Assembly (NCBI GenBank): GCA_014383445.1
Contig: JACNHV010000255.1
Coordinates: forward strand, 1 to 52,563
Direction of reading: 5' to 3'
DNA length: 52,563 nt
Origin: Candidatus Desulfobacula maris
Lineage (GTDB): Bacteria; Desulfobacterota; Desulfobacteria; Desulfobacterales; Desulfobacteraceae
A model generated the notes under the pieces. That model searched no databases and had not been told where the DNA came from. It saw only the letters and a program-made list of their open reading frames with translations. Position numbers and translations under genes: made by a program. Positions 18,840 to 40,610 of the stretch are shown here, piece after piece. Within the stretch, counting starts at the first letter, position 1. Every line of letters begins with the position of its first letter.

Positions 18840-18845
18840 AAAAAG

Positions 18846-22527: not shown

Positions 22528-22545
22528 TGTTGCAATACCTTAATA

Positions 22546-23571: not shown

Positions 23572-23579
23572 AGTAGAAG

Positions 23580-24270: not shown

Positions 24271-25035
24271 TTAGATATTTTCGCCCTTTTTTCTCAGATA
24301 ATACCCCCAGTATCCATCAACTTTCCGTTCCGGGTGACCGGGAATTATAACCTGTCGTTCTATTTTCCAACTATTTACCAATTCGTATCCCATTAAAAGA
24401 AACGGCTCGACCAACTCTTTGTAAGAGTGAATACGATAGCAACAATATGCTCCGAGATTCTGCAGGGTTATGTAGCCGGTGGAATTGGTTACCGGCGTTT
24501 TATTAATTATAATATGATTCGGTTTTCGGGCCATTTTCCGAATCTGATCTGGAAGGATTTCGCCGGGAACATATTGCAGGGATCCTGATGCCAATAAGAT
24601 ATCGACTGGTTCATCGACTTCAGCAAAACTGTTGATAAAAGCTATGTTGGTTTTATTTCGTTCAAGCGCAAGCTTTCTACCAGCTTTTGTCACACTCGGC
24701 ACGTCAACAATGATCCATTTCAACTCCGGTGGATAAGAAATTACCTTCTCGAAAGAATAATAAGCAATGCCAACATGTCCCCCGATTTCAACAACATGGA
24801 TAGGAGTTTTTATTGCCAGTAATGCCTTCTCAAACCAAAAGAGCATAGCATAATCGTCATTCTGAACTGAGTCCAGCCATTCGCGGTACCATCCACCAGT
24901 TCGAGCAGCATCATATCCCAGATTTTTCCGTTGCGGACCAGCATGAGAGGCCTCTTCGAAACTATCAAACACACCCCAGAAGCCATTAATTGGTACGCGC
25001 GTTTTAAATAGCCATTTTAGTTTCTGTAGCTTCAT
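24271..25035 (-). CDS. Putative methyltransferase, TIGR04325 family
   Basis: 254 residues. It opens with GFWGVFDSFEEASHAGP and YDAARTGGWYREW. HVVEIGGHVGIAYYSF is a Rossmann SAM-binding motif, and IDILLASGSLQYVP-like text and IINKTPVTNSTGYITLQNLGAYCCYRIHS match a family described only as putative methyltransferase (LIC12133-like), found in polysaccharide clusters. It lies 26 bp downstream of the CocE-type hydrolase, so it belongs to the NRPS-PKS transcription unit rather than to the glycosyltransferases. A tailoring methylation is inferred. Confidence 0.75.
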   Translation of the reverse strand: MKLQKLKWLFKTRVPINGFWGVFDSFEEASHAGPQRKNLGYDAARTGGWYREWLDSVQNDDYAMLFWFEKALLAIKTPIHVVEIGGHVGIAYYSFEKVISYPPELKWIIVDVPSVTKAGRKLALERNKTNIAFINSFAEVDEPVDILLASGSLQYVPGEILPDQIRKMARKPNHIIINKTPVTNSTGYITLQNLGAYCCYRIHSYKELVEPFLLMGYELVNSWKIERQVIIPGHPERKVDGYWGYYLRKKGENI

Positions 25036-25061
25036 AAAATCCTTTGTCGAAATAATTGGTA

Positions 25062-26867
25062 TTATTGGATAACAGGTAGTTCTATGAATGAAGGATGCAA
25101 TGTGTCGTGATATACTTGATTTATAGCCTCCTGCATTCTTTTTCCCTGATATTCATGCTCGCCCGTATTGAGATTCCTGGCTAATCGAGGGAAATTACTG
25201 CTTGAGATATGGATGACAATTTGATGGCCCTCCTCAAACAGATAGGCGATTGGACGAAGTATTATTTGGACCTCATAGATCTTATGAGGCTCAGCAAGTT
25301 TTGGGTTTTCAATACCATCGCGATAACGCAATCTAACAACGCCGTCCTGCAAACTTAGGCTTTTACCATCAGGAAATTTGTCTATCAGTTTAGCTGTGAA
25401 ATCAGTATCAGGAGCATTGGTAGAAACATTCAGAACAATCCTTGCACTCCCAACCATCTCAAGAGGCTCAGTTAAGGCCCTTGATTTATAAATTAAAATA
25501 TCAGAACGGTCCTCGATTGATCTCTGGTCCAAAGGACCTGGGATGTCTTCCTCCCGCCCTGTGCAGCAAATAGGTCCACCCAAAGTTGGAACGGGGTTAG
25601 CGGGGTTGTATCTGTATTTGTCTGCAACCTGTTTTGGTGGTACTTCCCGCTGTAAAAGTCCATTTTTTTTGTCAGATTGTTGAGATGATGCTAAAAATAG
25701 CCGCATTGGCTTTGTAGTCTCTGGCGGCCATTTTTCAGAAGTTGCCCATTTTGAATTTCGTAATTTATAATATTGAAACTTCGACGGAAGATCTGTTTGT
25801 TCTTCTTTGAGCCAGTAGCTAAACCAATCTATATATATGGCTTCATAGTCGATATCATTGTAATCAAACTCTAAATCACCAATCTTGATTTTGCCTGTCT
25901 CAAAGTCTTCTGAGGTGCAATGTTCGCCAGGACCAATTAATACATATTGGTGCTTTGCTCTAGGATGAACTGCCTTTTTCTCCATCAATTGAGCCAGTTT
26001 GAAAGTGTCCTGTACAGTCTGGTCAAACCAGTTGTTGATATGAAGGCCTGCCGTTGCAAAGGTATCGGTATTTTTTATATATCCTTCGGCATTCCACCAA
26101 CTGTCTGTAAGTGTATGTGTGACCAGATCATCAAATCCAGTTTCATATGGAACGACTTTCCTGGCCAAACTGGAAATGGGCAGCTCGTTGATTGATTGCT
26201 CCAATCGTGTCTCATAGTCTTTCGGTAAAACACCATCATTATGATCCACAGCACCGTGTTTTGTATACCAGCCAAGTGCAGATGCTAAATTTAAAACTCC
26301 GTTTTCATACACTCCGAAATATCCGTAACTATCCATTGCATTGCCAATGGCTCCACCACCACCATCGGTTATCATGGCTATATGGTTAGGATGCTTACTT
26401 GCCGCTAATATACTCTGTGTTTCGCCCAAATAAGAACATCCAAAAGTTCCAACCTTACCATTTGACCATTCCTGCTTTACTATCCAGCTAATCGTATCGT
26501 GGCCATCATGGCGGGAATACCTATGAGTACTATAAATACCCTCTGAGCCATAGCGTCCCCGCACATTTTGAACTATGACAGCAAACCCATTCTCAGTAAA
26601 AAGTTTTATCCGATGAAACGTTACCCCACCATAGGTTGTTCGCATCAAAATGGTAGGTAGCGGGAAATCTATATTTGCAGGTTTGAATATCTGTGTTGAG
26701 AGATGAATTCCGTCGCGCATGGGTATCATGATGTTGCGTTGCCTGTCGATACCATGTCTCCATGGCATAGTTTTGTCGGAAATCCATTCCCGTATGTTTC
26801 CTGTATTCCACATAACCGAAACTAAAAGAAAGGCTAAAAAAATTCCCCATTTGAAATATTTTATCAT
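25062..26867 (-). CDS. CocE/NonD-family (X-Pro dipeptidyl-peptidase S15-like) hydrolase
   Basis: 601 residues. A short N-terminal membrane segment (FKWGIFLAFLLVSVMW) suggests anchoring or export. IMIPMRDGIHLSTQIF starts the alpha/beta-hydrolase domain, and VGTFGCSYLGETQ gives the nucleophile elbow with Ser145. LIGPGEHCTS supplies the likely catalytic His, and the C-terminal jelly-roll begins near PEKWPPETTKPMRLFL. Family members cleave esters or amides, including acyl-amino bonds. The start overlaps the stop of the upstream hydrolase by 4 bp (ATGA). It may deacylate or release the assembly-line product outside the inner membrane. Confidence 0.85.
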   Translation of the reverse strand: MIKYFKWGIFLAFLLVSVMWNTGNIREWISDKTMPWRHGIDRQRNIMIPMRDGIHLSTQIFKPANIDFPLPTILMRTTYGGVTFHRIKLFTENGFAVIVQNVRGRYGSEGIYSTHRYSRHDGHDTISWIVKQEWSNGKVGTFGCSYLGETQSILAASKHPNHIAMITDGGGGAIGNAMDSYGYFGVYENGVLNLASALGWYTKHGAVDHNDGVLPKDYETRLEQSINELPISSLARKVVPYETGFDDLVTHTLTDSWWNAEGYIKNTDTFATAGLHINNWFDQTVQDTFKLAQLMEKKAVHPRAKHQYVLIGPGEHCTSEDFETGKIKIGDLEFDYNDIDYEAIYIDWFSYWLKEEQTDLPSKFQYYKLRNSKWATSEKWPPETTKPMRLFLASSQQSDKKNGLLQREVPPKQVADKYRYNPANPVPTLGGPICCTGREEDIPGPLDQRSIEDRSDILIYKSRALTEPLEMVGSARIVLNVSTNAPDTDFTAKLIDKFPDGKSLSLQDGVVRLRYRDGIENPKLAEPHKIYEVQIILRPIAYLFEEGHQIVIHISSSNFPRLARNLNTGEHEYQGKRMQEAINQVYHDTLHPSFIELPVIQ

Positions 26868-27706
26868 GCTTTAATTTGCTTAAATAACTTTAAGTTTACC
26901 GATGCCCATTCGTATATTCTTTCAATGAGACGATCACGATGGGTCTGTACCTTAAAAACATGATCTGCCAAAGGCCAGAAAACCTCAGTACAACATGTTT
27001 CAAATTCTGGTATATCCAGAGCCCGAACAAACTGCCCATGTTGATTATAATGATTCAAAGTTTGACTGGTAAAGAAGGCTAATACTTTTCCTTGACGTCG
27101 TACAATATGGATAAAGGCGTTCTGCATTTCGTCTGAGGTTGGAGCATCTCGCATACCAGCCATTTCTTCATAGATATCTTTTTCAATTCCTAAAAGTCTG
27201 CGTATACGCGAATAAATATTTTTTGATAAATTTAACCATTTGTAAGGGTTACTGATTTTTGAGATGAATTGCCGTTTTCGAAATCCGACATCTTTCAGAG
27301 ACACTGGATCAATGATCACCAAACCACAAACATCCGATTCTTCAGCTGTGATCTTTATCGCATTATCTGCACCGGAACATAATCCTATTAAAATAAAATT
27401 TCTTTGTCCAAATCTTTCATATATCGCTTGCTTTATCTGGTGCCAATCTAATGCTACAGACTGCCGATTTGTCAATCCCTCCCGGGAAGGAGTATCTCCT
27501 TTCCCCGACAGGTTAATGCGAATAGAGATGTAACCTAACTGAGCAAGCATCCGACAAATTAACACATTCAGCCGATAGGGTCCTTCCCTGTGTATTAATC
27601 CTGCATTCAGCGTTATGGCTACTGGAGCTTCAGAAATATTTTCCGGTAAGGTCACCATCCCTAATCCACTACTATTTTCACCATAACGAAAAATCGCTTC
27701 TTTCAT
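26864..27706 (-). CDS. Alpha/beta hydrolase, exosortase-locus ortholog 1 type
   Basis: 280 residues. VAITLNAGLIHREGPYRLNV is the oxyanion-hole strand, followed by YISIRINLSGKGDTPSREGL and the nucleophile elbow LIGLCSGADNAIKI with a serine in GLCSG. WPLADHVFK carries the catalytic His. This pattern is that of hydrolase 1 of exosortase A systems. It overlaps both neighbours by 4 bp, so three hydrolases are made in a fixed ratio. It could act as a stand-alone thioesterase for the NRPS-PKS line. Confidence 0.85.
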   Translation of the reverse strand: MKEAIFRYGENSSGLGMVTLPENISEAPVAITLNAGLIHREGPYRLNVLICRMLAQLGYISIRINLSGKGDTPSREGLTNRQSVALDWHQIKQAIYERFGQRNFILIGLCSGADNAIKITAEESDVCGLVIIDPVSLKDVGFRKRQFISKISNPYKWLNLSKNIYSRIRRLLGIEKDIYEEMAGMRDAPTSDEMQNAFIHIVRRQGKVLAFFTSQTLNHYNQHGQFVRALDIPEFETCCTEVFWPLADHVFKVQTHRDRLIERIYEWASVNLKLFKQIKA

Positions 27707-28455
27707 TGATCTAATACCTTTTGGGCAATATTCTTTAGAACCGATTTGGGGATAAGGTCTCCTTGGTGGAATACTGGCCAGCCATATTCAAACCCGCTGA
27801 AATCACAATTTATATATTTTCTGCTCTCATAAATCTTCTTGTTTGTTGTCGTAATCCAGACCTTTTCAGGGTGTTGTTCCAAAATTTTTGTGATAGAAAG
27901 TTTTTCCATGCCTTGTTTCACCTTTTGACTGAGGCCAAATAGAACATAAGGGATGTTCTCAAATTCACCATTAATTTCTTTTGCAATTCTCCTTTGACTT
28001 GATCTCAGCATCGAATTAACGTGATCCAACCATTGCAGATAAATCCTTCCTGTATCTATTGGATCCCAAAAGATGTATCGATTAACAGCAGAATGATGGC
28101 ATTGAGCAGCTAAAATGGCACCGAAACGAACTCCCATTAAGTCAACATTATCAGAACCTGTCAGCGCTATTCCTTCTTCGATAGCATTGTTGATATCATC
28201 TAACCAATTAATAGCTGTCGAATCTGATAGAACACCCTGCGCTTCCCCGGTACCACTGTAATCAATCCGAAGGACATGTGGTCCTTGTGGGTGTGAAGTG
28301 CATGCATTTGCCAGATCAACCAATGCTTTGTAGGTCCTTTGGTACTCATCAAATAACGGCGGACATATAATAAGCATATGCCTTGAATCAGGATTGGCTG
28401 AAGGGTGATAGAAGGCTAAAGCACCATTTGGCTCGAAAAAAAATGGTTCAATCAT
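27703..28455 (-). CDS. Alpha/beta hydrolase, exosortase-locus ortholog 2 type, no Ser in the elbow
   Basis: 250 residues. The sequence begins PFFFEPNGALAFYHPS, with LRIDYSGTGEAQG and VDLMGVRFGAILAAQ in the place of the GxSxG elbow. The nucleophile position there is Arg, so a classical Ser hydrolase mechanism is not possible at that site. Hydrolase 2 proteins of exosortase A systems often show a GLRLG-type elbow, so this is probably a family property rather than decay. It follows the NRPS gene by 24 bp. It may be a non-catalytic partner of the hydrolase at 26864. Confidence 0.82.
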   Translation of the reverse strand: MIEPFFFEPNGALAFYHPSANPDSRHMLIICPPLFDEYQRTYKALVDLANACTSHPQGPHVLRIDYSGTGEAQGVLSDSTAINWLDDINNAIEEGIALTGSDNVDLMGVRFGAILAAQCHHSAVNRYIFWDPIDTGRIYLQWLDHVNSMLRSSQRRIAKEINGEFENIPYVLFGLSQKVKQGMEKLSITKILEQHPEKVWITTTNKKIYESRKYINCDFSGFEYGWPVFHQGDLIPKSVLKNIAQKVLDQ

Positions 28456-28479
28456 TAATTTTCACCTTAAAAAGAAAAT

Positions 28480-31400
28480 TTACTGAAATAAACGACGCCA
28501 GAAAGGCTTCTTTTCAATTAATTGGTTGTCAATATTATTTTCCTTTTCTATATTCAAATCAAGTTTGTCTATTGATTTTAGGATGTCAGAAATACTATCA
28601 AAAAGGGAATCGATAAACTTGGTTTCAACCTGGCCTTGATCGTAATCAAACACCAGTAGCAAACCGTCCGTCTGGACACGTGTCCAGAATTCCATTGGTA
28701 ACTCGGTCTGTTTTCGATCAACACCATACTGTATGAGTTCAAGATTTGCCAAATTCCGTGGTCTGTTTCGAATATCCTGATAAGAAAAGCTTAGTGATAG
28801 TATGGAAGGAAATGACTGATTTTCAATAGGTGTCCCACTAACCAATTGAGCGAAACTCAATTCCTGGTGTTTATAAAACGTTTTTAATTGTAGAGATATC
28901 TCCGCAACAGTATTGAGGAAGTCATTACGACTCAATATTAATTCAGCAGGAAGTATTGAAACAAAGCTACCAATCAGACCTATTACATCAGGAGTATATC
29001 GGCCCGTAACTGGCAAACCAATGCAAATTTGATCTTTCTCTAACAATTGCCCATAGGATTTGGCCAGTGCTGTAAGCAGCACTTCATAGATCCGGAATTG
29101 GTATTTTTCACAGAAGGCTTCAACCTTTTTAAGATATTTTAAGTCCAGCATGATCTTTTGGCTGCTACAGGTTCCTCTTGGTTTGTGAATACTAAATGGA
29201 ATGTCGTCATAAGATGGAACATTCAACACACGACGGTGAAAATTTAAATTACTCTTTTCCGGTTGATTTTTTGAAGACCAATCCGTATAGTCCCTGAATT
29301 GGAATGGAAATGACTCCAGGGTAGCGGCTCTATTATCCATAGCCGCGTCATAGAATGCCTCCAATTCTTTGAGGAAGATATCAAATGACCATCCGTCAAA
29401 AATAAGCTGATGGGGTATAAATACAAATAAGTGGCTGGTTTCGTTTATCTTATAAAGTCTGGATCGGCAGAGCAGATGCCCTATTATCTTGAAAGGCTGT
29501 TCAACCATATGCTTTGCATCGTTCAAGGCATACTCCAGCGCATCGTTTTTATCAGTGCAATCTACCAATTCAATGCTTTCTAACTCTGACACATGACGCA
29601 GGGATAGATAATAGCCATTGTTATCTTTCAAAACGATACTGCGCAGAGCTGTCTGTCTTTCAAAAACACGTATTAAGCTGTTTTGAAAGGCATCCTGGTT
29701 GAACTCGCCCTTAAGTAGCCATGCGGCAGGCAGGTTGCCTGAAGTGTTATCTGGTAAACCCAGCTGACGATTGAGAAGACGAATCTGTTCATCACTTAGA
29801 CGTCTTATGGCTGTCTTTTGCAAAGCAACAGGGCCTCTTTCATCAGAACCCTCTATCTGTTGAGAATTGGCAACCTTTTCAGCCAGGAATGAAAGTCGCT
29901 CGGTGATGATTTGTGTTGGTTCTAACCGCACCCCAGTGGCTTTCTCGATACGCCATATAACTTCCAAGGCTAACAGTGAATGCCCTCCAATTTCGAAAAA
30001 ATTGTCCTCCCGACCAATTACAATTTCTGTTTTGAGTAGATCCATCCAAATCACTGCGATCAGCTTTTCCGTATCGGTATGCAATATCCCCTGACTCAAA
30101 ATTGATGACTCATTTATCTGAGGCCTTGGTAACGAGCGTCGATCTACTTTACCATTCGGACTTAGAGGTATAGTCTCAACACTTATAAAATATTGTGGCA
30201 CCATGTAGTTTGGCAAGATGGCTCTTAGCTGTCTTCGGAGGCTAATTGTTTCTAAGGGGTCAGCGGATGAAGGGATACAACAAGCAACAATGCGGTTATC
30301 TATCTCGCTTAGTTCCCACAAATAAACTGCCACTTGTTTTATTTCCCTACAGTTCAGTAATGCTGATTCTATTTCTCCAAGTTCAATGCGATAACCGCGT
30401 AGCTTTACCTGATCATCCATACGACCCAAATATTGAATCTCTCCGTTAGATAACACTTTGGCAAGATCACCGGTTCTGTAAATTCGACCAAATTTCGGAT
30501 GGTCCACAAATTTCTCAGATGTAAGTTCTGGGCGATTATGATAGCCTAAAGTTACACACACTCCACCGATGCACAATTCACCCGGTACTGAAATTGGAAG
30601 GGGTTTGAGATTGGAATCCAAAACATAAAGTTGAGTGTTAGCAGGAGGAGTCCCTATTGATATAACCGAATCTGAAAGATTAATTCGTTTAAAACTAGAA
30701 TAAACTGTGGCTTCAGTTGGACCATAACCATTCCACAGTTCAGTCACATGTGGCAGCAATGCATCTATAAGACTTTGTGGTAATGGTTCACCACCGCTTA
30801 TGGCTTTTAAAACGGGACGGTTTAAATCTCTATCATTTGTCCAAAGGCTGGCTAAAAGCATCCTCCATGTGCCCGGGGTTGCCTGCAATACTGTGATGTT
30901 ATGTTGCTCAATCAATGTTGCCAGGCGTTCCCCATCCTTATAATCTGCGCTGTTGGCAATTACTGTAGTACCACCAACAATTAATGGCAAAAACAATTCC
31001 AACACGGAAATGTCGAAGGACAAAGTCGTAAATGCAAGAATCCGGTCCTGATCTGAAAAACCAGGTCGTTTTGCCATGCTCTCCAGGAAGTTTATCATAG
31101 CACTGTTTTGTACTTTGACACCTTTGGGTTTGCCGGTAGAGCCTGAAGTATAAATTGTATAGGATAGCCGATCTCCAGAAGGAAATATTTGAGGGAGTGT
31201 AATGGAACCGGTGTCAACATTACAAAGTTCATTGACATTTATATGGGTAAGTTTCGCAGCTCTTACTCCCTGTGGAGCGCTATCATCCTCTATTACTGCA
31301 ACAGCAGCACTGTCTTCGATCATATATACAAGACGATCATTTGGAAAATCCGGATCAAGTGGCATATATGCCGCACCTAGTTTCAATATCGCCAATATAC

Positions 31401-32988
31401 TGATTAATATCTTTTCAGAACGTTGGCAACATATACCAACAATAGATCCATCACACACTCCCAAATGACATAGATGTTTAGCCTGCTGTGTTGAAAGTTT
31501 GTCGAGATCACTGTAAGTTATAGCGTTATTATCAAAAATTACAGCAATTGCCTCTGGGGAAAGCTTCTGTTGTATATTAAATGCAGATATAAAATCATCA
31601 AACTGATTTTCTCTATTTGTTTTATTTGTTTCCTTTACGATGTCAGGAAGATCCTGGCAAAGTTCCAGATCATCTAATCTATGTTCATTGTTATGGGCTG
31701 CTGAGATCAGTATAAATTCTAAAGCCTGCATCCAGGCTGTAATCGTTTCTTTGCTAAACAGTATATCAGAGTATGTCGCCTCAATAAGGAAATCATCTCC
31801 GGAAGGTACAATATTGAGAAAAATTTCAAAACTTTCAGCCGCTCGCGGCACTGATCGTACAACTGCGGAAGCTGATCCGAAATCCAAAACAGGCATTGGC
31901 TGATCTATGTTGAAAATAGTGCTGATCAAAGGGACTCGTGACCTATCGACCGTAAAATTTTTGAGGAGTTGGCCAAATGTGAAGTTTGGATGCTCTGAGG
32001 CATTGAGCACTTCATGTTTTACTTTGTTAACCAATTCACTGAATGTGGTATTGCCATCAAATTGGATCCTGATTGGTAACAGCTGAACCATATGGCCCAA
32101 CAAATTTAATCTGCTTAAGGCTACCTGTCCGGCTACAGGTAATCCAATCACAATATCCTGATTACCTGTGAGCCGATATAGTAATGAAAAATATCCTGCC
32201 AGAACAAAATTAACCATACTAGATTTAAGCATTGCTGAGGCTTTAGGCAGTTTGGCTACCAAGATTTTATCTAAATTATAATTCAATCTTGCAGCGCGAA
32301 AACTTCGCATAGCTGGGCGGGTTCGATCCAGCGGGAACTCCAATGTCGGGGGTAATTGTTCGAACCTTTCTATCCAGTAATCGACATCTACATTTGTTAT
32401 CTCATTGGCAGAATGCTGCTCTGCATAATCGAAAAATGAAGGGGCTTCGCCAAGTTTTAAGGCATCACCATTGTTACAATAAATTTTAACCAGTTCATCA
32501 AGCATTATGCCAAACGACCATCCATCACACACCACGTGATGTGTAGCAATGACTATTTCATAGCATGTATCCTCAAGTTGCTTTACCCACACAAATAACA
32601 GTGGCCCTTCCTCAAGGTTCATAGGTGAGATAGAAATATTTTTTAAAAGAGATTTAACTACTCGTGTTTTTGTTGATTTATCAAAGCTACGAAGGTCTTC
32701 ATAGTCAATAGACAGATGTCTACCCTCTTGTAAGCACAATTCATTACCACCAGGTGAAAACGTAGCCCTGAGTATATCATGACGTTCAACTATGACATTG
32801 AAACATATCTCTAATAATTCAATGTCTATTGTCCCATTTACACGCAAAGCTATTGCTTCATTAAAAGCAGTATTTGCCTCGTCACTTATTTTTGTTGAAG
32901 TGATAATCTCTTGTTGAGGAGCAGTAGTGGGTGATATTCTTATAAGTTCACCAGAGGCAAATGGATCAAAATATTCTTCATTTTTCAT
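28480..32988 (-). CDS. Non-ribosomal peptide synthetase, C-A-PCP-C
   Basis: 1502 residues. Domain 1 is condensation (about 15-440), with HHVVCDG and catalytic His151. Domain 2 is adenylation (about 460-960), with YTIYTSGSTGKPKGV, YRTGDLA and PNGKVDRR. By eye alignment to GrsA its ten-residue pocket is D-I-L-Q-I-G-G-V-Y-K, closest to the classical glycine code (6 of 10). Domain 3 is PCP, with FFEIGGHSLLALE and Ser1004. Domain 4 is a second condensation domain (about 1080-1480) in which the motif reads HQLIFDG, with Gln1194 where the catalytic His should be. No thioesterase follows. The ATG overlaps the TGA of the upstream PKS-NRPS gene by 4 bp. Confidence 0.93.
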   Translation of the reverse strand: MKNEEYFDPFASGELIRISPTTAPQQEIITSTKISDEANTAFNEAIALRVNGTIDIELLEICFNVIVERHDILRATFSPGGNELCLQEGRHLSIDYEDLRSFDKSTKTRVVKSLLKNISISPMNLEEGPLLFVWVKQLEDTCYEIVIATHHVVCDGWSFGIMLDELVKIYCNNGDALKLGEAPSFFDYAEQHSANEITNVDVDYWIERFEQLPPTLEFPLDRTRPAMRSFRAARLNYNLDKILVAKLPKASAMLKSSMVNFVLAGYFSLLYRLTGNQDIVIGLPVAGQVALSRLNLLGHMVQLLPIRIQFDGNTTFSELVNKVKHEVLNASEHPNFTFGQLLKNFTVDRSRVPLISTIFNIDQPMPVLDFGSASAVVRSVPRAAESFEIFLNIVPSGDDFLIEATYSDILFSKETITAWMQALEFILISAAHNNEHRLDDLELCQDLPDIVKETNKTNRENQFDDFISAFNIQQKLSPEAIAVIFDNNAITYSDLDKLSTQQAKHLCHLGVCDGSIVGICCQRSEKILISILAILKLGAAYMPLDPDFPNDRLVYMIEDSAAVAVIEDDSAPQGVRAAKLTHINVNELCNVDTGSITLPQIFPSGDRLSYTIYTSGSTGKPKGVKVQNSAMINFLESMAKRPGFSDQDRILAFTTLSFDISVLELFLPLIVGGTTVIANSADYKDGERLATLIEQHNITVLQATPGTWRMLLASLWTNDRDLNRPVLKAISGGEPLPQSLIDALLPHVTELWNGYGPTEATVYSSFKRINLSDSVISIGTPPANTQLYVLDSNLKPLPISVPGELCIGGVCVTLGYHNRPELTSEKFVDHPKFGRIYRTGDLAKVLSNGEIQYLGRMDDQVKLRGYRIELGEIESALLNCREIKQVAVYLWELSEIDNRIVACCIPSSADPLETISLRRQLRAILPNYMVPQYFISVETIPLSPNGKVDRRSLPRPQINESSILSQGILHTDTEKLIAVIWMDLLKTEIVIGREDNFFEIGGHSLLALEVIWRIEKATGVRLEPTQIITERLSFLAEKVANSQQIEGSDERGPVALQKTAIRRLSDEQIRLLNRQLGLPDNTSGNLPAAWLLKGEFNQDAFQNSLIRVFERQTALRSIVLKDNNGYYLSLRHVSELESIELVDCTDKNDALEYALNDAKHMVEQPFKIIGHLLCRSRLYKINETSHLFVFIPHQLIFDGWSFDIFLKELEAFYDAAMDNRAATLESFPFQFRDYTDWSSKNQPEKSNLNFHRRVLNVPSYDDIPFSIHKPRGTCSSQKIMLDLKYLKKVEAFCEKYQFRIYEVLLTALAKSYGQLLEKDQICIGLPVTGRYTPDVIGLIGSFVSILPAELILSRNDFLNTVAEISLQLKTFYKHQELSFAQLVSGTPIENQSFPSILSLSFSYQDIRNRPRNLANLELIQYGVDRKQTELPMEFWTRVQTDGLLLVFDYDQGQVETKFIDSLFDSISDILKSIDKLDLNIEKENNIDNQLIEKKPFWRRLFQ

Positions 32989-35900
32989 GGTTTACCTACT
33001 TCCAAATACTTTCCTTTTTGTTTGGGATCATTTATAAAATAAGCAGCCTCTCCACGAGCATTTTTACCCAATTTTGCACCCGGTGGCAAATTTGGTTTAG
33101 CCTTTAAGAATTTGTTAGCTACGACCATATTTCCCTCAATCAAACCATGAGAAACAATTAGCGCCAGAGATTTCTTGAAAGCTGTAAGAATTGCCGAAAT
33201 ATCTTCATCGCTGTGTGCTGTAGTGATGAAATTGGGTCTGAACTGCTGGATATTAATTCCCTCCATTACCATCAATAAAAACAACACATGTCCCCAGTGT
33301 GCATTCTGTGGAACTGATATATAAAAAAAAGAAGCAAATTCTTCGAATTTTACCTGACAATCGAGCTGCCGAATAAAGTCTTTAGCACTTAATGCCAATT
33401 TTGATGTTTTTTCTCCTAATTGCTTGTACAAATCGTTTCCTTCGGCCTTTATTCTCATTAGTACAGCATTTGCTGCAGCTAAAGCCAATGGGTGACGAAC
33501 AAATGTCCCGGCAAAAAAGGTCACGCCGCATTCTGGTATAGACTCGTCACCATACTGCCAGTAACCTCCGTCAAGAGCATCCATAAATTTGACTTTACCG
33601 CCGATTATACCGATAGGGTATCCACCGCCAACGACCTTGCCATAAGTTGCAAGATCTGAATCAATATCAAAGAGCTTTCGAATACCCCCTGGATGCACCC
33701 GGAACCCTGTTACTACCTCATCAAGGATCATCGCTGTTCCGCTATCTTGGGTGATTTTGCGAATCGACTGAAGATACTCGCGATCATGGAATTCGGGATG
33801 TCGGCTCTGCACAGGTTCCACCAAAACCGCGGCAAGATCAGGACCCAGCTTTTTGATAATGTCAAGACTCTCACCCCCACCCCAGGGCAAGACCAGCATA
33901 TTACTAGTCATTTCCTTTGAGATGCCCGGAGCTGCTGGTAGCGCCTGATAATTCTTCCCGGGGCGGTTAATCACTTCATCAAAAATTCCGTGATAACTCC
34001 CTTCAAACATCACAATCTTTTGTCGACAAGTAACTGTTCGTGCGAGGCGGATAGCACCGATAACTGCCTCGGAACCGGTACTGGCAAAAGAACAACGTTC
34101 ATTACCCGTCAATTCACAAAAAAGTTTGGCAACTTCCCCGGCAAGAGGTGCCTGTGGGCCAGTCTCGATACCAAGATCCAGCTGTTTTTTAATTGCTTTG
34201 GTGATAAAATCCGGAGAATGACCAAAAAATATTGGCCCAAAACCGTTTGAGATATCTATCAGCTCGTTCCCATCGATGTCCCATAATTTAGAGCCTTTCG
34301 ATTTTTCGGTCACGATAGGAAATATGATTTCCTTCCATTCAGGGTTAAAACCTGACACAGTGCGCGGATCAGAAAAATATTTGCGATGTTTTTGTGTGTG
34401 TTGCTTTGATTTATTAAATTTGTTTTGATAGTTTTTCATCACTTCATTTAGCCATCTATCCTGGGCTTTTGTTAGAGTGATACCTATTTTTTCACGCGCA
34501 ATACGTGTTCCTGGAGTGTGCCGAGCTTTAGAAATTTCGCCATCCGGTTGTTCCATTTGAATATTGGATGCATCATTAGATGACACTGATGTTTTCAGTT
34601 GCATAGTCGGTGAATCAATTGCTGGGGGTTGCAGGGGTATACTGCCTCCGCCGATTGCCCTCAGCTGTAGCTCCATTATCCGTAGCTGATGTGAAATCAA
34701 AGTTTCAACAGTGCCAATTCCTGAAACTGTATCACATGAAAAATTTTGCATCGTATTCTGAGGTGAATTTTTCATATTAATCATCTCACTATCGGTTTTG
34801 TTTTCTTCAGGAAAAAAGTCCACTGGTAAAGTTTGACTATAATACTCTGCCAATTTTTCAATATCTGGATAATCCTCCATTAGTTGTCTGATTGAGATAT
34901 TGCTTTTAAATTCATTTTTTAATGCAACGCTGACCTGAGTCAAAATTAACGAATCAAATCCCATTTCTAAGAAAGAGACTGACTCATCCTCTTTAGAGAC
35001 ATCTTCACCTGAAATTTCTTCTAGGATAAAGTGTATAGTGTGGATTATTTTTTCTCTTCTATTGTTTCCAACCATATAACAAGGCTCCTTTACATTTTTC
35101 ACCACATTTGAAAATTCGGAGAAACATTTTTGATCTCCATTTGAATTCTCGGTTGCTGACTGATCAGCCAACGACGAATAAGAATCTAACCAGAATCTTT
35201 TCCGCTCGAACGGATATGGGGGCAGAGGAATGCGGTTACGCTTTTCAGTTTTATAAAAATTTTTCCAATCAATGGGTATGCCGTTTTTCCAGAGGATTCC
35301 GACAGCTTGGAGGATTGCAGTCCACTCTGAGTTACCTTCGGTCGTTCTTCCCAATGACGGTATTGCTGTATGAGTTTCTTTATCCTTTATCTGCTGAAAT
35401 GCCAAAGTTGTCGCTGTATTTCCTGGGCCAGTTTCAAGTAATATTTGATTCTCTTTTTTTAAAATTTCTTTTATCCCATCGGCAAAACGGACTGGCTGCC
35501 TTAAATGGTTCGCCCAATATTCCGGATCAATTGCCTGCTTTTGTGTGATCCATGTTCCTGATACTGCTGAAATGAACGGAAGCTGAGGAGAAGAAAGTTC
35601 AACAGCTTTTACAATTTCTTTGAATGGTTTGATAGCCGGTTCCATCATACTTGAATGAAATGCATGGGATGTATGCAGCAATCGGCAAATTATTTTTTCT
35701 TTTTCGAGCTCTTTCTGCAATTGAAATATTGTCATTGATGGCCCTGAAACAACACAAAGCGATGGAGCATTCATTGCAGCAATAGAAAGATTGTCTCCCA
35801 ATCTTTTTTCTATTTCTAATAACGGCATTCTAACAGACAGCATTGAACCTTCAGGTTGCTCCTGCATAAGCCTGCCCCTTGATGATGCAAGAAGCAGTGC

Positions 35901-38900
35901 ATTTTCAAGAGAAAACACCCCGGATAGGCATGCAGCAACATATTCACCAATACTGTGGCCAATCATAGCCGAAGGGAAGACTCCCCAGGAATTCCATAGT
36001 TTTGCCAATGCATACTCAATAATAAAAAGTGCCGGTTGGTTATTTTTGGTTTTAATCAGCTCCTCAGTTGCTGTATCAGAATTTTTTTCTACAGGAAATA
36101 TTATGCTTCGAATATCTATATTCGATATTGATTTAAGTATTTCCGAACACTCATCAACAACTTTCCGAAATACAGGCTCAGCTTCATATAATTTCAAGCC
36201 CATATTAATATATTGGGAGCCCTGGCCCGGAAACATAAATACGACATCAGGCTTGCCTGAACTATCAAGCTGAATTTTATTAAACCTACAATCATCTTCT
36301 TCAAGTTTTCTTAATGCATCCTGCACATCTTTACATATGATAAATCGCTTTAAATTGAATGTTTTTCTTCCAAGCATCAATGTATTGGCAACATCGGCTA
36401 TTTCTATTTCAGGATTATCGCTTAAACATTTATGGATATTCTTAGTTGACATCTTTAAAGCAGCGTCAGTTTTAGCAGAAATAACAAGGAGATGTTTTGA
36501 TCTTGTTGATTTAGTATGTACCATTTCAGGTGCTTCTTCAAGCACGACATGCGCATTTGTGCCTCCAACCCCGAAAGCACTTACACCTGCCCTACGTGGC
36601 CCTTTGACGTTCTCCCATTCCGTCAGTCGGGTATTGACATAAAAAGGACTGCTTTCAAAATCAATCTCAGGATTAGACTCAGAAAAATTAAGACTCGGTG
36701 GAATTTTTTTATTTTTTAATGACAGCGCTGTTTTGATTAGTCCTGTCACACCCGAAGCATGAATCAGGTGGCCAATGTTACTTTTTATTGAGCCAATAGC
36801 GCAGAACTGTCTTGCTGATGTGCTGCTTTTAAATACCTGATTTAAAGCAGCGATTTCTATTGGATCGCCTAATGGAGTTCCCGTACCATGCGTTTCAATA
36901 TATGAAATAGTTTCAGGAGAAACATTTGCTTGTGCTAAAGCAAGAGAAACAGCTTTTGCTTGACCATTAATGCTGGGAGATGTGAAACTGACCTTATCAG
37001 CACCATCATTATTCATTCCTGTCCCACGGATAACAGCAGTTATCTCATCTCCATCACGGATGGCGTCATCAAGACGTTTCAGGACAACTATGCCAGCACC
37101 ACTATTAAAGGTTACACCATGGGCATTTTTATCAAATGGTCGGCAATGACCGTCCTTAGATAGAATGGCCCCTTCCTGGTACAAATAACCGCTGTTCTGG
37201 GGGACAATAATAGAAATGCCTCCTGCTAAAGCCATATCGCACTGATAATTATTCAAACTATCGAATGCATGGCAGACAGCCACTAAAGAAGTAGAACAGG
37301 CAGTATATATATTTACGCTAGGTCCACTAAGATCTAACTTGTAAGAAACACGGGTTGTTAAAAAATCTTTTTCATTGACTAACATCGCCTGAAACTCGCC
37401 AATGCGGTCAACAGCTTCTCTGTTTGGTAATACATTATTCAAGTAGTATGTGTTGTTGTTCGAACCGGCAAATATGCCAATTAGTCCATTATACTGTTCA
37501 GGCGTGTACCCTGAATTATCAAGGGCTTCCCATGAAAGTTCCAAAAATAGACGCTGCTGTGGGTCCATAATTTCTGCTTCTCTGGGACTGATGCCAAAAA
37601 ACGATGCATCAAACATATCTATATCATCAAGAACACCACGTGCTTTTACATAATTAGAATCATTTTTTAATTTACTGCTTATAGTTGGAGAAAGATCTTC
37701 CTCATCAAAAAAAGTGATGGATTCTTTACCATTACATATATTTTCCCACAGCTTTTCTACATTCGAAGCTCCTGGAAATCTGCCGGCCATACCTATAATA
37801 GCAATAAATTGATTATTTACAGTTATGCTTCTACTACTATCTTTTTGATTTATCCTCTGCCTCGCAAGCTTATATTTTTCACTTTCAAGAAATGGCAGAC
37901 TGCTCTCCTGAGTTAAATAATCTGCAAATGATTTGATAGTCGGGTATTGAAAAAACTTAACAACACTGATTGTACGATCTGTTTTAATACGATCTTTGAT
38001 TCTTAGGACGACTTTCAATGAAAGGATAGAACTCCCTCCCACATCAAAAAAATTGTCTTGCGTTCCTATATTCTCAATATCTAAAACCTGAGACCAGATT
38101 TTTGACAACTCTTTTTCAAAAGAGTTTGTTGGAATTGAATATCCTTTTTTCGAAATAATTTTTGGTTTTGGCAAAGCTTGTCTATCTGTTTTACCATTAG
38201 CTGTAAGTGGTATTTTATCCAAAAAAACAAAAAAGGCGGGGATCATGTACACAGAAATTTTATCCCGTAGATATTCACGAAGAGATTCTGAGTCAATTTC
38301 CTTTTGCCCAGATAATATCACATAGGCTACAAGTTTTTTCTGACCAGGCTTATCTTCCCTAACGACAACTAACGCATCGGATAAAGATTCATTCTGTTTG
38401 AGTACAAACTCGATCTCTTTTGGTTCTATCCGATAACCATGAATCTTTACTTGATCATCAACTCGTCCTAAAAAATCGATATTACCATCCGGCAGTCTCC
38501 TGACATTATCACCGGTTGCATATAGAGTGGCTCCTACCTTTTTAGAGAATCTGTCCTTTATGAATTTTTCAGCAGTTAATTCTGGTCTATTTAGATAACC
38601 TTTTGCTACTCCATAACCACCAACGTAAAGCTCTCCAGACTCCCCATTATCCACTATTTGCATTTTTGAGTCGAGGATATAGGCTGTCGTATTTGATATG
38701 GGTTGACCTATAGGAATAGTTAACCATTTTTTATCCAAATTAGAAGGAATTCGGTAGCAGCAAGTAAAGGTTGTATTTTCTGTTGGACCATATCCATTGA
38801 CAAAATTGGTGCCCGGCAATTGGTTTTGAGCTTTTTTAACATGTGTGACAGACAGAGCCTCACCTCCTGTCAAAATCTCATTTACATTTAACAGCACATC

Positions 38901-39725
38901 CGGTTTTTCATCGATTATTGTATTAAACAAAGATGCAGTTAGCCACATAGTTGTGATTTTATAATTCTCAATTAAGGCTTTCAAAATCTTGAGATCTGGA
39001 ATCCCATTCCCTGGATATAAAACACATTTCCCGCCATGGAGCAAAGCCCCCCAAATCTCAAATGTTGCAGCATCAAAAGAAATAGTTGCCAATTGTAGCA
39101 GTACCTGGTCGGCATTAAGTGGCGTATAGTCGACTCCAAAAACCAGACGGATCACACCACGGTGTGGGACCATAACACCTTTTGGAGTACCCGTAGAACC
39201 AGACGTGTAATTAATATATGCAAGATTTTCAGAAGTACATTTGCATTCTGGGCTTTTGTTTTCAGAAACAAGGTCGCTTCCCCATCCAGCATCCATAATT
39301 TGTATTTCAGCTTTCAAATCAGTCAATCTGCTTAAGAAATGGCTCTGCGTCAGCAGAACAGGCGAACCCGTGTCCTTAAGCATAAAATCAATCCGTTCTT
39401 TTGGATATGCAGGATCAATTGGGACATAGGAACCACCCGCCTTAAGAATTCCCAAAATTGCTACAATCATTTCAATTGAACGATCCATGAACATTGCAAC
39501 AAGAATATCAGGCCCGACGTTTTTACGTAATAATATATGAGCGAGATGGTTGGCCCGCTTGTTCAATTCATAATATGAAACCGTTTTAGATTTATTAAAT
39601 TCTTGATCAATCTCTGGAAGAACAACTGCAGTTTTGTCAGGAGTTCTTAAAACGGTTGCTTCAAAAATTTGTTGAATGCATAAATTTATTGGGGTATTTA
39701 ATTCCATTTCAAGTTTTCTATTCAA
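32985..39725 (-). CDS. Hybrid NRPS-PKS megasynthase, A-PCP-KS-AT-ACP-aminotransferase
   Basis: 2246 residues. Adenylation (about 20-530) has YTSGSTGTPKGVM and A10 TANGKTDRQ; the pocket read by eye is D-A-F-W-L-G-G-T-F-K, a valine code. PCP has DNFFDVGGSSI with Ser566. Ketosynthase (about 640-1065) has TACSTS with Cys810, ETHGTGT and SNIGH. Acyltransferase (about 1160-1480) has GHSIGE with Ser1258 and HAFH, the malonyl-CoA signature. ACP has FLEMGFDSL with Ser1592. A class III PLP aminotransferase (about 1780-2190) has LDEVVTGFR and YGKVVGGG with Lys2030. No ketoreductase or dehydratase fits between AT and ACP. The start is TTG 39725 or ATG 39707; neither has a well-spaced ribosome site. Confidence 0.95.
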   Translation of the reverse strand: MNRKLEMELNTPINLCIQQIFEATVLRTPDKTAVVLPEIDQEFNKSKTVSYYELNKRANHLAHILLRKNVGPDILVAMFMDRSIEMIVAILGILKAGGSYVPIDPAYPKERIDFMLKDTGSPVLLTQSHFLSRLTDLKAEIQIMDAGWGSDLVSENKSPECKCTSENLAYINYTSGSTGTPKGVMVPHRGVIRLVFGVDYTPLNADQVLLQLATISFDAATFEIWGALLHGGKCVLYPGNGIPDLKILKALIENYKITTMWLTASLFNTIIDEKPDVLLNVNEILTGGEALSVTHVKKAQNQLPGTNFVNGYGPTENTTFTCCYRIPSNLDKKWLTIPIGQPISNTTAYILDSKMQIVDNGESGELYVGGYGVAKGYLNRPELTAEKFIKDRFSKKVGATLYATGDNVRRLPDGNIDFLGRVDDQVKIHGYRIEPKEIEFVLKQNESLSDALVVVREDKPGQKKLVAYVILSGQKEIDSESLREYLRDKISVYMIPAFFVFLDKIPLTANGKTDRQALPKPKIISKKGYSIPTNSFEKELSKIWSQVLDIENIGTQDNFFDVGGSSILSLKVVLRIKDRIKTDRTISVVKFFQYPTIKSFADYLTQESSLPFLESEKYKLARQRINQKDSSRSITVNNQFIAIIGMAGRFPGASNVEKLWENICNGKESITFFDEEDLSPTISSKLKNDSNYVKARGVLDDIDMFDASFFGISPREAEIMDPQQRLFLELSWEALDNSGYTPEQYNGLIGIFAGSNNNTYYLNNVLPNREAVDRIGEFQAMLVNEKDFLTTRVSYKLDLSGPSVNIYTACSTSLVAVCHAFDSLNNYQCDMALAGGISIIVPQNSGYLYQEGAILSKDGHCRPFDKNAHGVTFNSGAGIVVLKRLDDAIRDGDEITAVIRGTGMNNDGADKVSFTSPSINGQAKAVSLALAQANVSPETISYIETHGTGTPLGDPIEIAALNQVFKSSTSARQFCAIGSIKSNIGHLIHASGVTGLIKTALSLKNKKIPPSLNFSESNPEIDFESSPFYVNTRLTEWENVKGPRRAGVSAFGVGGTNAHVVLEEAPEMVHTKSTRSKHLLVISAKTDAALKMSTKNIHKCLSDNPEIEIADVANTLMLGRKTFNLKRFIICKDVQDALRKLEEDDCRFNKIQLDSSGKPDVVFMFPGQGSQYINMGLKLYEAEPVFRKVVDECSEILKSISNIDIRSIIFPVEKNSDTATEELIKTKNNQPALFIIEYALAKLWNSWGVFPSAMIGHSIGEYVAACLSGVFSLENALLLASSRGRLMQEQPEGSMLSVRMPLLEIEKRLGDNLSIAAMNAPSLCVVSGPSMTIFQLQKELEKEKIICRLLHTSHAFHSSMMEPAIKPFKEIVKAVELSSPQLPFISAVSGTWITQKQAIDPEYWANHLRQPVRFADGIKEILKKENQILLETGPGNTATTLAFQQIKDKETHTAIPSLGRTTEGNSEWTAILQAVGILWKNGIPIDWKNFYKTEKRNRIPLPPYPFERKRFWLDSYSSLADQSATENSNGDQKCFSEFSNVVKNVKEPCYMVGNNRREKIIHTIHFILEEISGEDVSKEDESVSFLEMGFDSLILTQVSVALKNEFKSNISIRQLMEDYPDIEKLAEYYSQTLPVDFFPEENKTDSEMINMKNSPQNTMQNFSCDTVSGIGTVETLISHQLRIMELQLRAIGGGSIPLQPPAIDSPTMQLKTSVSSNDASNIQMEQPDGEISKARHTPGTRIAREKIGITLTKAQDRWLNEVMKNYQNKFNKSKQHTQKHRKYFSDPRTVSGFNPEWKEIIFPIVTEKSKGSKLWDIDGNELIDISNGFGPIFFGHSPDFITKAIKKQLDLGIETGPQAPLAGEVAKLFCELTGNERCSFASTGSEAVIGAIRLARTVTCRQKIVMFEGSYHGIFDEVINRPGKNYQALPAAPGISKEMTSNMLVLPWGGGESLDIIKKLGPDLAAVLVEPVQSRHPEFHDREYLQSIRKITQDSGTAMILDEVVTGFRVHPGGIRKLFDIDSDLATYGKVVGGGYPIGIIGGKVKFMDALDGGYWQYGDESIPECGVTFFAGTFVRHPLALAAANAVLMRIKAEGNDLYKQLGEKTSKLALSAKDFIRQLDCQVKFEEFASFFYISVPQNAHWGHVLFLLMVMEGINIQQFRPNFITTAHSDEDISAILTAFKKSLALIVSHGLIEGNMVVANKFLKAKPNLPPGAKLGKNARGEAAYFINDPKQKGKYLEVGKP

Positions 39726-39729
39726 AGTC

Positions 39730-40608
39730 CTACAGATTTATCAGAAAGATAAGCAACTGTTTGGCAATATATTTTCGGCCTTTCTCGTTCAAGTGGCCAC
39801 CGTCTTTTGTATACTCAGGAACCAGCGCATAATATTCATTGCCATCATAAGAGAAAATCTCTCTTTTCCCCGTAGAATGGGTTGCCTCCAGCCGGGCAAT
39901 GTCAAAAATAGGCTCCTTACCACCATAGTGACTTAAAAGTAATTTATTATATTCATTCCTGACTGCATTATGACTATTGGAAAAGAAGTTGTCTTTTTTC
40001 TCACCCCTAATCCCTCTGATAAAATTTTTTACACTTTTGACTATCCCTACCTGCTCTTTTATGAGGAGAGGCACGGTGAAGTGGACAATTGTCATCCCGG
40101 GATACCTTGTTTTCAATTCATCCATACTTTCTCGGTACTTTTTGAAGGTCGTCTCAATATCAGCTCCCGACTTAAAGTCAACAAAACAAAATTTTAAAAA
40201 AGCAATGTCTAATTTGTTGCCAAGCCCGTCATGCATAATCTGAATAAAATCGTCTATCTTCGATATAGGATTATTATTTTTCCCAATATTGGAATAATGG
40301 GCAAATATTGCTTTCTCAAAATCTTTCCTGGATTTGGTCTCAACTAAATTCAATTGAATTTGCATATTATTTGATTTTAATTCGTTGATACCCGAAACAA
40401 TGTTGTTTCCTAACGATTGATGACCGAAAAATATTTTTTTTCGAGCCAGATTATCCCATTTTTCCTTTGGAATTTGAGCGATCTTTTTAATCTGCTCATT
40501 GCTATGCTGATTTATTTCCATATCATCTCCTGAACATCCATTGGTAAATAGAAATATGACCCCAATATAAAACAGCGAAATTATTATTTTGTTGATATTA
40601 TATGTCAT
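39730..40608 (-). CDS. SGNH/GDSL-like envelope hydrolase, probable lipoprotein
   Basis: 292 residues. The N-terminus IIISLFYIGVIFLFTNGCSG is hydrophobic and ends in a TNGC box, which suggests lipoprotein export but is not a perfect lipobox. The body has KIFFGHQSLGNNIV in the position of the block I GDS nucleophile motif, and a late DGGHLNEKGRKYIA that fits the block V DxxH pair of SGNH esterases/acetyltransferases (AlgX/AlgJ-like roles). It ends 4 bp before the hybrid megasynthase. The ATG 40606-40608 lies inside the IS target duplication. A TTG inside the IS end (40623) could add five residues. Its native leader has been displaced to 44278. Confidence 0.7.
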   Translation of the reverse strand: MTYNINKIIISLFYIGVIFLFTNGCSGDDMEINQHSNEQIKKIAQIPKEKWDNLARKKIFFGHQSLGNNIVSGINELKSNNMQIQLNLVETKSRKDFEKAIFAHYSNIGKNNNPISKIDDFIQIMHDGLGNKLDIAFLKFCFVDFKSGADIETTFKKYRESMDELKTRYPGMTIVHFTVPLLIKEQVGIVKSVKNFIRGIRGEKKDNFFSNSHNAVRNEYNKLLLSHYGGKEPIFDIARLEATHSTGKREIFSYDGNEYYALVPEYTKDGGHLNEKGRKYIAKQLLIFLINL

Positions 40609-40610
40609 TA
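40602..40610. repeat. Left target-site duplication of the IS element
   Basis: ATGTCATTA, identical to 44269-44277, directly abuts the left terminal inverted repeat. On the minus strand it contains the start codon of the SGNH-like gene. Confidence 0.9.

Follow-up and report, generated by a model that had tools for sequence, protein, structure and literature searches.

The 52,563-nucleotide window analysed here is a whole contig (C328; GenBank JACNHV010000255.1) of the genome of Candidatus Desulfobacula maris, and it holds a block of seven genes in which an assembly line of non-ribosomal peptide synthetase (NRPS) and polyketide synthase (PKS) type, divided over the two proteins NRPS1 and NRPS2, is followed by a pair of alpha/beta-hydrolase genes, hydr2 and hydr1. 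The NRPS block sits in a nearly co-directional exosortase and exopolysaccharide (EPS) locus of about 45 kb, and the question is what connects assembly line, hydrolase pair and polysaccharide genes. With A for adenylation, PCP and ACP for peptidyl and acyl carrier protein, KS for ketosynthase, AT for acyltransferase, AMT for aminotransferase and C for condensation domain, the minus-strand order of the block, beginning after a mobile element, is:

39730..40623, minus strand: SGNH/GDSL-like protein (Pfam Lipase_GDSL, below cut-off)
32985..39725, minus strand: NRPS1, A-PCP-KS-AT-ACP-AMT megasynthase of 2246 aa (Pfam, motifs, A code)
28480..32988, minus strand: NRPS2, C-A-PCP-C* of 1502 aa, C* being a terminal C domain with HQxxxDG (Pfam, motifs, A code)
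27703..28455, minus strand: hydr2, alpha/beta-hydrolase fold with an Arg elbow, GVRFG (TIGR03101, 71.5 bits, cut-off 202.75)
26864..27706, minus strand: hydr1, alpha/beta hydrolase with a Cys elbow, GLCSG, and His249 (TIGR03100, 42.8 bits, cut-off 168.45)
25062..26867, minus strand: CocE/NonD (S15-type) hydrolase (TIGR00976, 328.3 bits, cut-off 66.3; Pfam S15 and PepX_C)
24271..25035, minus strand: TIGR04325-family methyltransferase (170.1 bits, cut-off 80)

A preliminary description of this DNA placed all these genes on the minus strand with 4-bp overlaps. The strand is as described, but only three of the six junctions (NRPS1/NRPS2, hydr2/hydr1 and hydr1/CocE) are such overlaps, the others being gaps of 4, 24 and 26 bp. 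Of the genes that it listed beside the megasynthases, the three hydrolases are now seen to be a TIGR03101-like and a TIGR03100-like protein, both below the family cut-offs, and a CocE/NonD enzyme; the methyltransferase belongs to TIGR04325, and the SGNH assignment stays below the Pfam cut-off. A homologue of the SGNH/GDSL-like protein (35.6% identity) lies between DegT and exosortase in the relative G806, and a homologue of the methyltransferase (34.7% identity) closes the orthologous cluster of genome G572 as well.

The domain orders first given for the two megasynthases are those read by Pfam, with the qualification that the last C domain is degenerate. The KS motifs of NRPS1 read TACSTS, ETHGTGT and NIGH, and its AT motifs, GHSIGE and HAFH, are of the malonyl type. 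The carrier serines are present, as is the AMT lysine (YGKVVGGG), and HHVVCDG is intact in the first C domain of NRPS2; for the KS, AT, carrier, AMT and C-domain motifs alike we assume the customary meanings. The AMT is a class III aminotransferase downstream of the ACP (PF00202, 139 bits), and its best match in the Protein Data Bank (PDB) is mycosubtilin synthase A (6kfm, E 8.7e-116). The first domain of NRPS1 is an A domain of the amino acid type (AA-adenyl-dom, 425.5 bits, cut-off 317.4) and not a fatty-acyl starter. The beta-amination of iturin/mycosubtilin type that was proposed at first is therefore retained for the AMT and given up for the fatty-acyl start: with an amino acid entering the KS, the AMT would be expected to yield a beta,gamma-diamino acid. 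The Pfam scan of the line found one KS only, no ketoreductase (KR), dehydratase (DH) or enoylreductase (ER) domain and no thioesterase domain. A KS search of the own genome gave ten matches, of which all others lie outside this contig.

The A-domain codes were read by motif alignment with GrsA numbering, the tenth residue K being added by the script and not read, and two of them were checked in print. The NRPS1 code, DAFWLGGTF, is Val-like and identical in G572; the NRPS2 code, DILQIGGVY, is related to Gly codes. In the available text of PMC9113097 DAFWLGGTF is printed as the Val code of another A domain, and in that of PMC12283262 DILQLGMIWK is given for Gly-activating domains. The terminal C domain of NRPS2 (its last ~470 aa) reads HQLIFDG, with the second His replaced by Gln, and HQxxxDG is common to the window and its two closest homologues, G572 and L067. 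Such a domain may have a recruiting instead of a condensing role.

The best NCBIfam matches of hydr2 and hydr1 are TIGR03101 and TIGR03100, named 'exosortase A system-associated' hydrolases 2 and 1. When the two proteins are aligned with the homologues from the hydr1 scan of named genomes described below, the nucleophile elbow of hydr2 carries Arg in 50 of 50 rows, the window included (R110), and that of hydr1 carries Cys in 53 of 55 rows (C110 in the window) and Ser in two, two more hydr1 rows having no residue at this column. His249 of hydr1 is kept in 54 of 54 rows. A stretch LNxGLxHRxGPxRL was found in the alignment designated A2. The classical members of the two families show the same pattern: 11 of the 185 genomes in the class that includes G607 contain a hydr2 above the TIGR03101 cut-off, each with an Arg elbow and each followed by a GLCD elbow. 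The next gene, scanned in five of these genomes, passes TIGR03100 each time (277-361 bits, cut-off 168.45), and an acyl ligase is close by in three of these five regions and a TIGR03099 decarboxylase in two.

The AlphaFold models of hydr1 and hydr2 (pLDDT 90.3 and 91.2) are both alpha/beta-hydrolase folds by fold search. Their matches are lipases, esterases and other alpha/beta hydrolases, those of hydr1 including the curacin thioesterase, and from this follows that the fold alone is no sign of a transferase; a PDB sequence search with hydr1 gave weak matches only. For the Cys elbow, human BAAT provides a parallel: according to the available part of PMC6934887, it has a catalytic-triad Cys that binds the acyl group covalently as an intermediate, and it conjugates acyl thioesters with amino acids.

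The scan of named genomes with the hydr1 alignment returned 56 loci from about a dozen phyla. They come from gamma- and betaproteobacteria, Myxococcales, Gemmatimonadetes, Acidimicrobiia, Nitrospinaceae, Oligoflexia, Desulfobacteraceae, Desulfoluna, Calditrichaeota, KSB1, Anaerolineae, Planctomycetota, Bacteroidetes and Latescibacterota. In 49 of the 56, hydr2 is visible to BLAST next to hydr1. Where at least 3 kb of upstream sequence is present (48 loci), same-strand NRPS C and A domains are found upstream in 31, a KS in nine and an AMT in nine. Five loci have hydr2 and the NRPS joined in a single open frame: L077, L078, L089 and L115 from Acidimicrobiia and L114 from Desulfobacteraceae UBA5852, with frames of 1433, 1356, 1422, 1416 and 451 codons, the last ending at a contig edge. 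For the last A domain ahead of the pair the code is of the Gly type in 20 of 31 loci, against 12 of 27 for the other A domains there. These fusions and, less directly, the Gly pattern of the terminal residue point to a pair that acts on the finished, carrier-bound chain. In the four Acidimicrobiia fusions the last A code, readable in three, is DLTK (presumably Asn-like) and not Gly, and three of these four loci have a further acyl-ligase match downstream.

The hydr1 of the window has two near relatives, in L066 (an Aestuariirhabdus metagenome-assembled genome, MAG; 56% identity) and L067 (a Pseudomonadales MAG; 50%), the other 41 aligned being at most 32% identical. In the same order, Desulfoluna spongiiphila (L085) and D. 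butyratoxydans carry an NRPS-PKS line of another kind, with hydr2 and hydr1 behind it, and in D. spongiiphila glycosyltransferase (GT) and deacetylase homologues lie upstream of that line. D. spongiiphila is a cultured host, as are Luteimonas strains (L068 and L072), in which an NRPS with AMT occurs with hydr1 and no hydr2 is visible to BLAST. Two wider searches were less discriminating. A hydr2 profile matched 86 of 395 genomes in the phylum at E<=1e-10, but ten matches exceeded 80 bits, and the rest, short generic alpha/beta-hydrolase matches, were not counted. The AMT matched 176 of 194 genomes of the order at E<=1e-40; most of the matches listed are stand-alone GSAM-like frames, and 21 among the matches listed, the own one included, score above 350 bits.

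The linkage of the module to EPS loci is recurrent, and far wider than the preliminary description knew. A PF02397 priming GT lies within 50 kb of hydr1 in 24 of 41 genomes, when 1.88 are expected from random placement, and within 20 kb in 12 of 41, when 0.76 are expected. Genomes with loci on short contigs (L077, L078, L089, L097, L104, L110, L111, L112 and L115) are outside this count, and some other short-contig genomes (G573, G582 and G597) are within it. The closest parallel is an Aestuariirhabdus MAG of the Gammaproteobacteria (G572:C117, contig JAUXFT010000004), in which the orthologous cluster stands at the end of a complete exosortase EPS locus; 1091 of 2184 aligned residues of NRPS1 and 868 of 1500 of NRPS2 are identical to those of the window. 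This locus runs from a priming GT (passing PF02397) through exporter (TIGR03027), chain-length protein (TIGR03007), kinase-like and TIGR03016-like genes to FemAB (TIGR03019), deacetylase (TIGR03006), exosortase (TIGR02602), deacetylase-like, Wzx-like, Wzy-like and GT4-like genes, and then to an acyltransferase-like gene (identified by eye), NRPS1, NRPS2, hydr2, hydr1, one further gene and a TIGR04325-like methyltransferase. Five of these score above their NCBIfam cut-offs (Wza-type exporter, chain-length protein, FemAB, deacetylase and exosortase); the kinase-like and TIGR03016-like genes are below theirs. The initial proposal that the line is tied to exopolymer genes is borne out by this cluster together with the priming-GT counts.

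The pair occurs in such surroundings also without an NRPS. Seven loci (L070, L081, L084, L090, L094, L098 and L101), of which L081 and L101 belong to Dyella/Luteibacter strains, have homologues of Wza and Wzz at about 3-5 kb on the upstream side of hydr1; the L101 exporter passes PF02563 and the L101 Wzz match is below cut-off. In L056 a hydr2-hydr1 pair lies amid FemAB, GT2, GT4 and Wzy homologues. Exilibacterium tricleocarpae (L118, G619:C13) has two hydr2-hydr1 pairs in one region, which also holds FemAB, an exosortase-EpsI homologue and an A-domain-like ligase, and in which no NRPS C domain was seen.

Around the block, the window contains the following other features:

47058..48134, minus strand: FemAB-family XrtA/PEP-CTERM-associated protein (TIGR03019, 318.6 bits, cut-off 260.35)
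45822..47054, minus strand: DegT/DnrJ/EryC1 aminotransferase (Pfam PF01041, 154.3 bits)
44972..45820, minus strand: exosortase (TIGR02602, 157.3 bits, cut-off 105.55)
44340..44984, minus strand: EpsI (TIGR02914, 74.1 bits, cut-off 42.8)
41915..43750, plus strand: IS1182-family transposase (NF033551, 66.1 bits, below the cut-off of 270)
41056..41928, plus strand: DruA-family gene (PF14236, 124.9 bits)
18846..20303, minus strand: Wzx/MOP flippase-like protein (NCBIfam PRK10459, 248.9 bits, cut-off 273)
12207..13448, minus strand: Wzy-type O-antigen ligase/polymerase (Pfam Wzy_C, 77.3 bits, cut-off 31.7)
3510..24134, minus strand: other EPS-type genes (GT2, UDP-GlcNAc 2-epimerase, deacetylase, GT4s, GNATs, hexapeptide transferase and CotH/VTC/DUF4956)
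1042..2646, plus strand: ligase_PEP_1-like acyl ligase (487.9 bits, cut-off 592.35; left-edge cassette)
728..982, plus strand: free carrier protein (PF00550; left-edge cassette)
78..731, plus strand: weakly WbuX-like protein (left-edge cassette)

The assigned genes from FemAB (48134) to GT2 (3510) are on the minus strand throughout, the mobile-element genes being the single exception. After the TIGR04325 methyltransferase follow a hexapeptide transferase, GNATs, GT4s, Wzx, DUF4956, CotH, VTC and Wzy, and beyond Wzy more GT4s, a methyltransferase, a deacetylase, an epimerase and GT2. Wzx and Wzy, first described as immediately beside the block, start about 4 and 11 kb past its far end; EPS genes are thus present at both ends, and since they flank it, the block lies within the EPS locus. 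It is not immediately beside the exosortase operon, as had also been described, because the mobile-element genes (41056-43750, plus strand) separate the two. A search for terminal inverted repeats of the IS1182-like element around 41056-43750 turned up no clean ones. The overlap of the DruA-family gene with the transposase gene suggests a DruA relative that travels with the insertion sequence (IS).

Some further observations concern the rest of the window. The VTC-domain, CotH kinase-like and DUF4956 genes form a row (13477-17554, minus strand) within the EPS locus. The contig edge (78-3491, plus strand), which includes also a small methyltransferase gene, is a second acyl-activation cassette, and its WbuX-like protein has a homologue (32% identity) just upstream of the Desulfoluna NRPS. 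Past FemAB (49164-50982, minus strand) come a pair of genes for nucleotidyltransferases of the Pol-beta type and a gene for a ParE toxin, which has a small gene upstream; at the corresponding place, homologues of deacetylase, Wza and the priming GT are seen in the relatives G835 and G806.

The GC content of the NRPS genes is 0.39-0.40, compared with 0.405 in 105,650 bases sampled from the own genome, and their GC content at third codon positions (GC3), 0.32-0.34, is within the range of 0.29-0.57 for 37 sampled own-genome open reading frames; many EPS genes are GC-poorer than the block. An alien composition of the block was accordingly dropped as a candidate, and by composition the block does not look like the recent insertion with different codon usage that would have spoken against the first interpretation.

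The exosortase, EpsI and FemAB proteins of the window are all over their curated cut-offs, but the exosortase scores 175.1 bits with the XrtA model TIGR03109, below its cut-off of 208. It has an orthologue of 77% identity in G835, whose contig stops directly past this gene. Eight PEP-CTERM matches in the own genome are over the 16-bit cut-off, which two of 14 control genomes also pass, and a second exosortase match (526-aa frame; G000:C22:5184-5996) is on one contig with four PEP-CTERM matches (C22:16408-26641). That the exosortase should be a constant partner of the assembly line, as first supposed, is contradicted by the wider comparison. It was found in nine of 50 genomes with the hydr1 module (50 loci are covered; L082, L102, L106, L108, L113 and L121, on short contigs, are left out) and within 25 kb of hydr1 in two, G572 and G619, with the NRPS there only in G572. 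The exosortase was accordingly dropped as common denominator of the module: in most cases examined it is an incidental neighbour, and the tie is to EPS.

To see how the parts could work together, consider a chain that starts on NRPS1. NRPS1 would load a Val-like amino acid and extend it with malonate, whereupon the AMT would aminate the beta-keto group. The carrier-bound product would be a 3,4-diamino acid, 3,4-diamino-5-methylhexanoyl if the starter is Val, to which NRPS2 would append one small amino acid (probably Gly). Its degenerate last C domain would dock the release pair and not elongate the chain further. In this pair hydr1, with its Cys nucleophile, would lift the chain off the carrier and transfer it to an amino or hydroxyl group on a sugar of the EPS or on a lipid-linked repeat unit, a candidate acceptor being an amino sugar from the DegT aminotransferase, and hydr2, the catalytically altered partner with the Arg elbow, would hold the carrier. 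The decorated unit would then be exported and polymerised by Wzx/Wzy. The likeliest reading, to which we give about an even chance, is that the module is dedicated to glycan decoration, that is, to moving a short non-ribosomal beta-amino peptide from carrier to polymer sugar by hydr1 with hydr2. The broader proposition, that hydr2-hydr1 is a general and hitherto unrecognised carrier-protein-to-glycan acyltransferase pair with interchangeable acyl suppliers (a ligase/decarboxylase cassette in the classical exosortase A loci, an NRPS-PKS line in the present one), we put a little short of even. The arrangement first described is in this way confirmed and its interpretation partly supported; that the peptide is attached to the polymer is still something we infer, now with hydr1/hydr2 as the candidate enzyme pair.

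Several results count against glycan decoration. The code of the second A domain, in NRPS2, deviates from the Gly consensus, and the scores of hydr1 and hydr2 are far under the TIGR03100 and TIGR03101 cut-offs. Cys or Ser at the active site predicts conjugation poorly across mammals, according to the available text of PMC6934887, and the Cys elbow is for this reason no proof of transfer over hydrolysis. NRPS C and A domains are missing upstream in 17 of the 48 loci, and a priming GT within 50 kb is missing in 17 of the 41 genomes, several of which have short contigs. Among the window proteins scanned there is no Wza, Wzz or priming GT; the two PF02397 genes of the own genome are on other contigs, C312 and C319, and in the relatives G835 and G806 Wza, Wzz and priming-GT homologues are found by BLAST. 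The conserved linkage of the block, present in distant relatives, fails in part in close kin: hydr2 has no match at E<=1e-8 in five genomes of the same genus or family (G192, G035, G092, G129 and G176), and the family member G806 has the orthologous exosortase locus without the NRPS. Nor was hydr1 or hydr2 found at E<=1e-8 in 16 stretches around order-level AMT matches (L037-L052), three of which (L037, L038 and L045) resemble the window line in that an NRPS2-like part comes after an NRPS1-like one; L037 is 44% identical over NRPS1, and its contig ends soon past these parts.

The same genes would look much alike in an ordinary natural-product cluster. There hydr1/hydr2 would serve as an external pair of thioesterases that sets free, for export, a small beta-amino peptide, be it a signal, a metal ligand or an antibiotic, and the closeness to EPS genes would reflect no more than co-regulation in biofilms. 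The megasynthase is of a standard type with an AMT nearest to mycosubtilin synthase in the PDB, alpha/beta hydrolases are the usual release enzymes, as the curacin match recalls, and tailoring could be the task of the CocE/NonD hydrolase and the TIGR04325 methyltransferase. Moreover, N-acyl amino acid synthase genes, with small-molecule products, are often beside PEP-CTERM/exosortase genes according to the available part of PMC7293339. We nevertheless regard a free product as rather unlikely, though a serious alternative, when the EPS linkage exceeds random placement so far in unrelated genomes, when the pair without an NRPS recurs downstream of Wza/Wzz in seven loci and in the FemAB-homologue EPS locus L056, when the hydr1 elbow is Cys and not Ser in 53 of 55 rows, and when no transporter is among the seven genes scanned between 24271 and 40623. 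If the exosortase were the relevant partner, the peptide might modify PEP-CTERM proteins or be handled by FemAB during sorting. The same-strand EpsI, exosortase and FemAB genes about 4-8 kb from the block and the eight PEP-CTERM matches would fit such a role, which the low exosortase count among hydr1-module genomes makes very improbable.

Another conceivable product is an acyl or peptidyl anchor, or a lipid-carrier part of the polymer, of the kind that the capsule-locus PKSs RkpA and WcbR presumably make, instead of a decorating side chain. The available text of PMC3908369 does describe type I PKS genes (wcbR/rkpA) within capsule clusters; with a single KS, no KR, DH or ER in the Pfam scan and a predicted product that is a short polar diamino-acyl chain, an anchor is improbable. 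A chance neighbourhood, in which a horizontally acquired NRPS island sits in a variable EPS locus with no functional tie, would explain why the nearest hydr1 relatives are those in L066 and L067 (56% and 50% identity, compared with at most 32% for the other 41), why the module is absent from the sampled near relatives and why an IS lies alongside. It would leave unexplained that the orthologous cluster is likewise embedded in an exosortase EPS locus, that GC and GC3 are genome-like with same-strand EPS genes on both sides and that the priming-GT linkage holds in 24 of 41 genomes, and we give it little probability.

If hydr2-hydr1 is such a general pair, there is a widespread route by which custom non-ribosomal peptides are placed on bacterial exopolysaccharides, and the exosortase A-associated hydrolases 1 and 2, two families now named as 'hypothetical equivalog', acquire a function. 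If glycan decoration is the true function, assembly lines, so far read almost only as sources of secreted natural products, would also serve to tailor polysaccharides, and among the 'orphan' NRPS clusters many could consist of EPS-tailoring genes. The predicted 3,4-diamino-acyl substituents would make the surface polymer positively charged. The LNxGLxHRxGPxRL stretch, together with the Cys and Arg elbows, is a search handle for further pairs.

Compared with known systems, the line shares with iturin/mycosubtilin synthase (MycA AMT, 6kfm) a class III aminotransferase domain past the ACP in a KS-AT module, and differs from it by a Val-like A domain in place of the fatty-acyl start, by its EPS locus and by the lack of a thioesterase domain in the Pfam scan. 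The microcystin proteins McyG/McyE have an A-PCP start, KS-AT-ACP-AMT and then C-A-PCP-C ending in C; compared with them, the window line is without methylation or KR domains, has a degenerate (HQ) terminal C domain and lies in an EPS locus. In the D-alanylation of teichoic acids by DltABCD, an acyl group reaches a surface polymer by way of an NRPS-like adenylation enzyme and a carrier protein, the group being a single amino acid, the transferase a membrane O-acyltransferase and the polymer a Gram-positive teichoic acid; the window has the Cys alpha/beta-hydrolase pair instead of the membrane enzyme. The TIGR03100/TIGR03101 hydrolases, found with the ligase TIGR03098 and the decarboxylase TIGR03099, have the same Cys and Arg elbows as the window pair, which is below their curated cut-offs and is served by a full NRPS-PKS line and not by a free ligase. 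Reducing PKS domains are a feature of RkpA and WcbR, and the KR, DH and ER domains in question are absent from the Pfam scan of the window line. Like that line, the PKS gene of these capsule clusters is inside a polysaccharide locus and, unlike it, is without NRPS modules, according to the available text of PMC3908369. The N-acyl amino acid synthases (Craig 2011, cited in PMC7293339) likewise acylate amino acids beside exosortase and EPS genes; the available part of PMC7293339 describes them as a single acyltransferase, with no NRPS-PKS line and no hydrolase pair. BAAT resembles hydr1 as a Cys-nucleophile enzyme whose triad conjugates an acyl thioester to an amine, a likeness of active site, and as presented in the available text of PMC6934887 it is mammalian, unpaired and uses acyl-CoA. 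In the literature on NRPS/PKS with exosortase or polysaccharide loci, to the extent of the texts available, no account of the present arrangement was found, and a term search of PMC1569441 gave no mention of hydrolase, acyl, ligase, nonribosomal, peptide synthetase or decarboxylase. The nearest printed precedents found, in the available parts of PMC3908369 and PMC7293339, are the PKS genes in capsule clusters (RkpA/WcbR) and the N-acyl amino acid synthases by exosortase genes.

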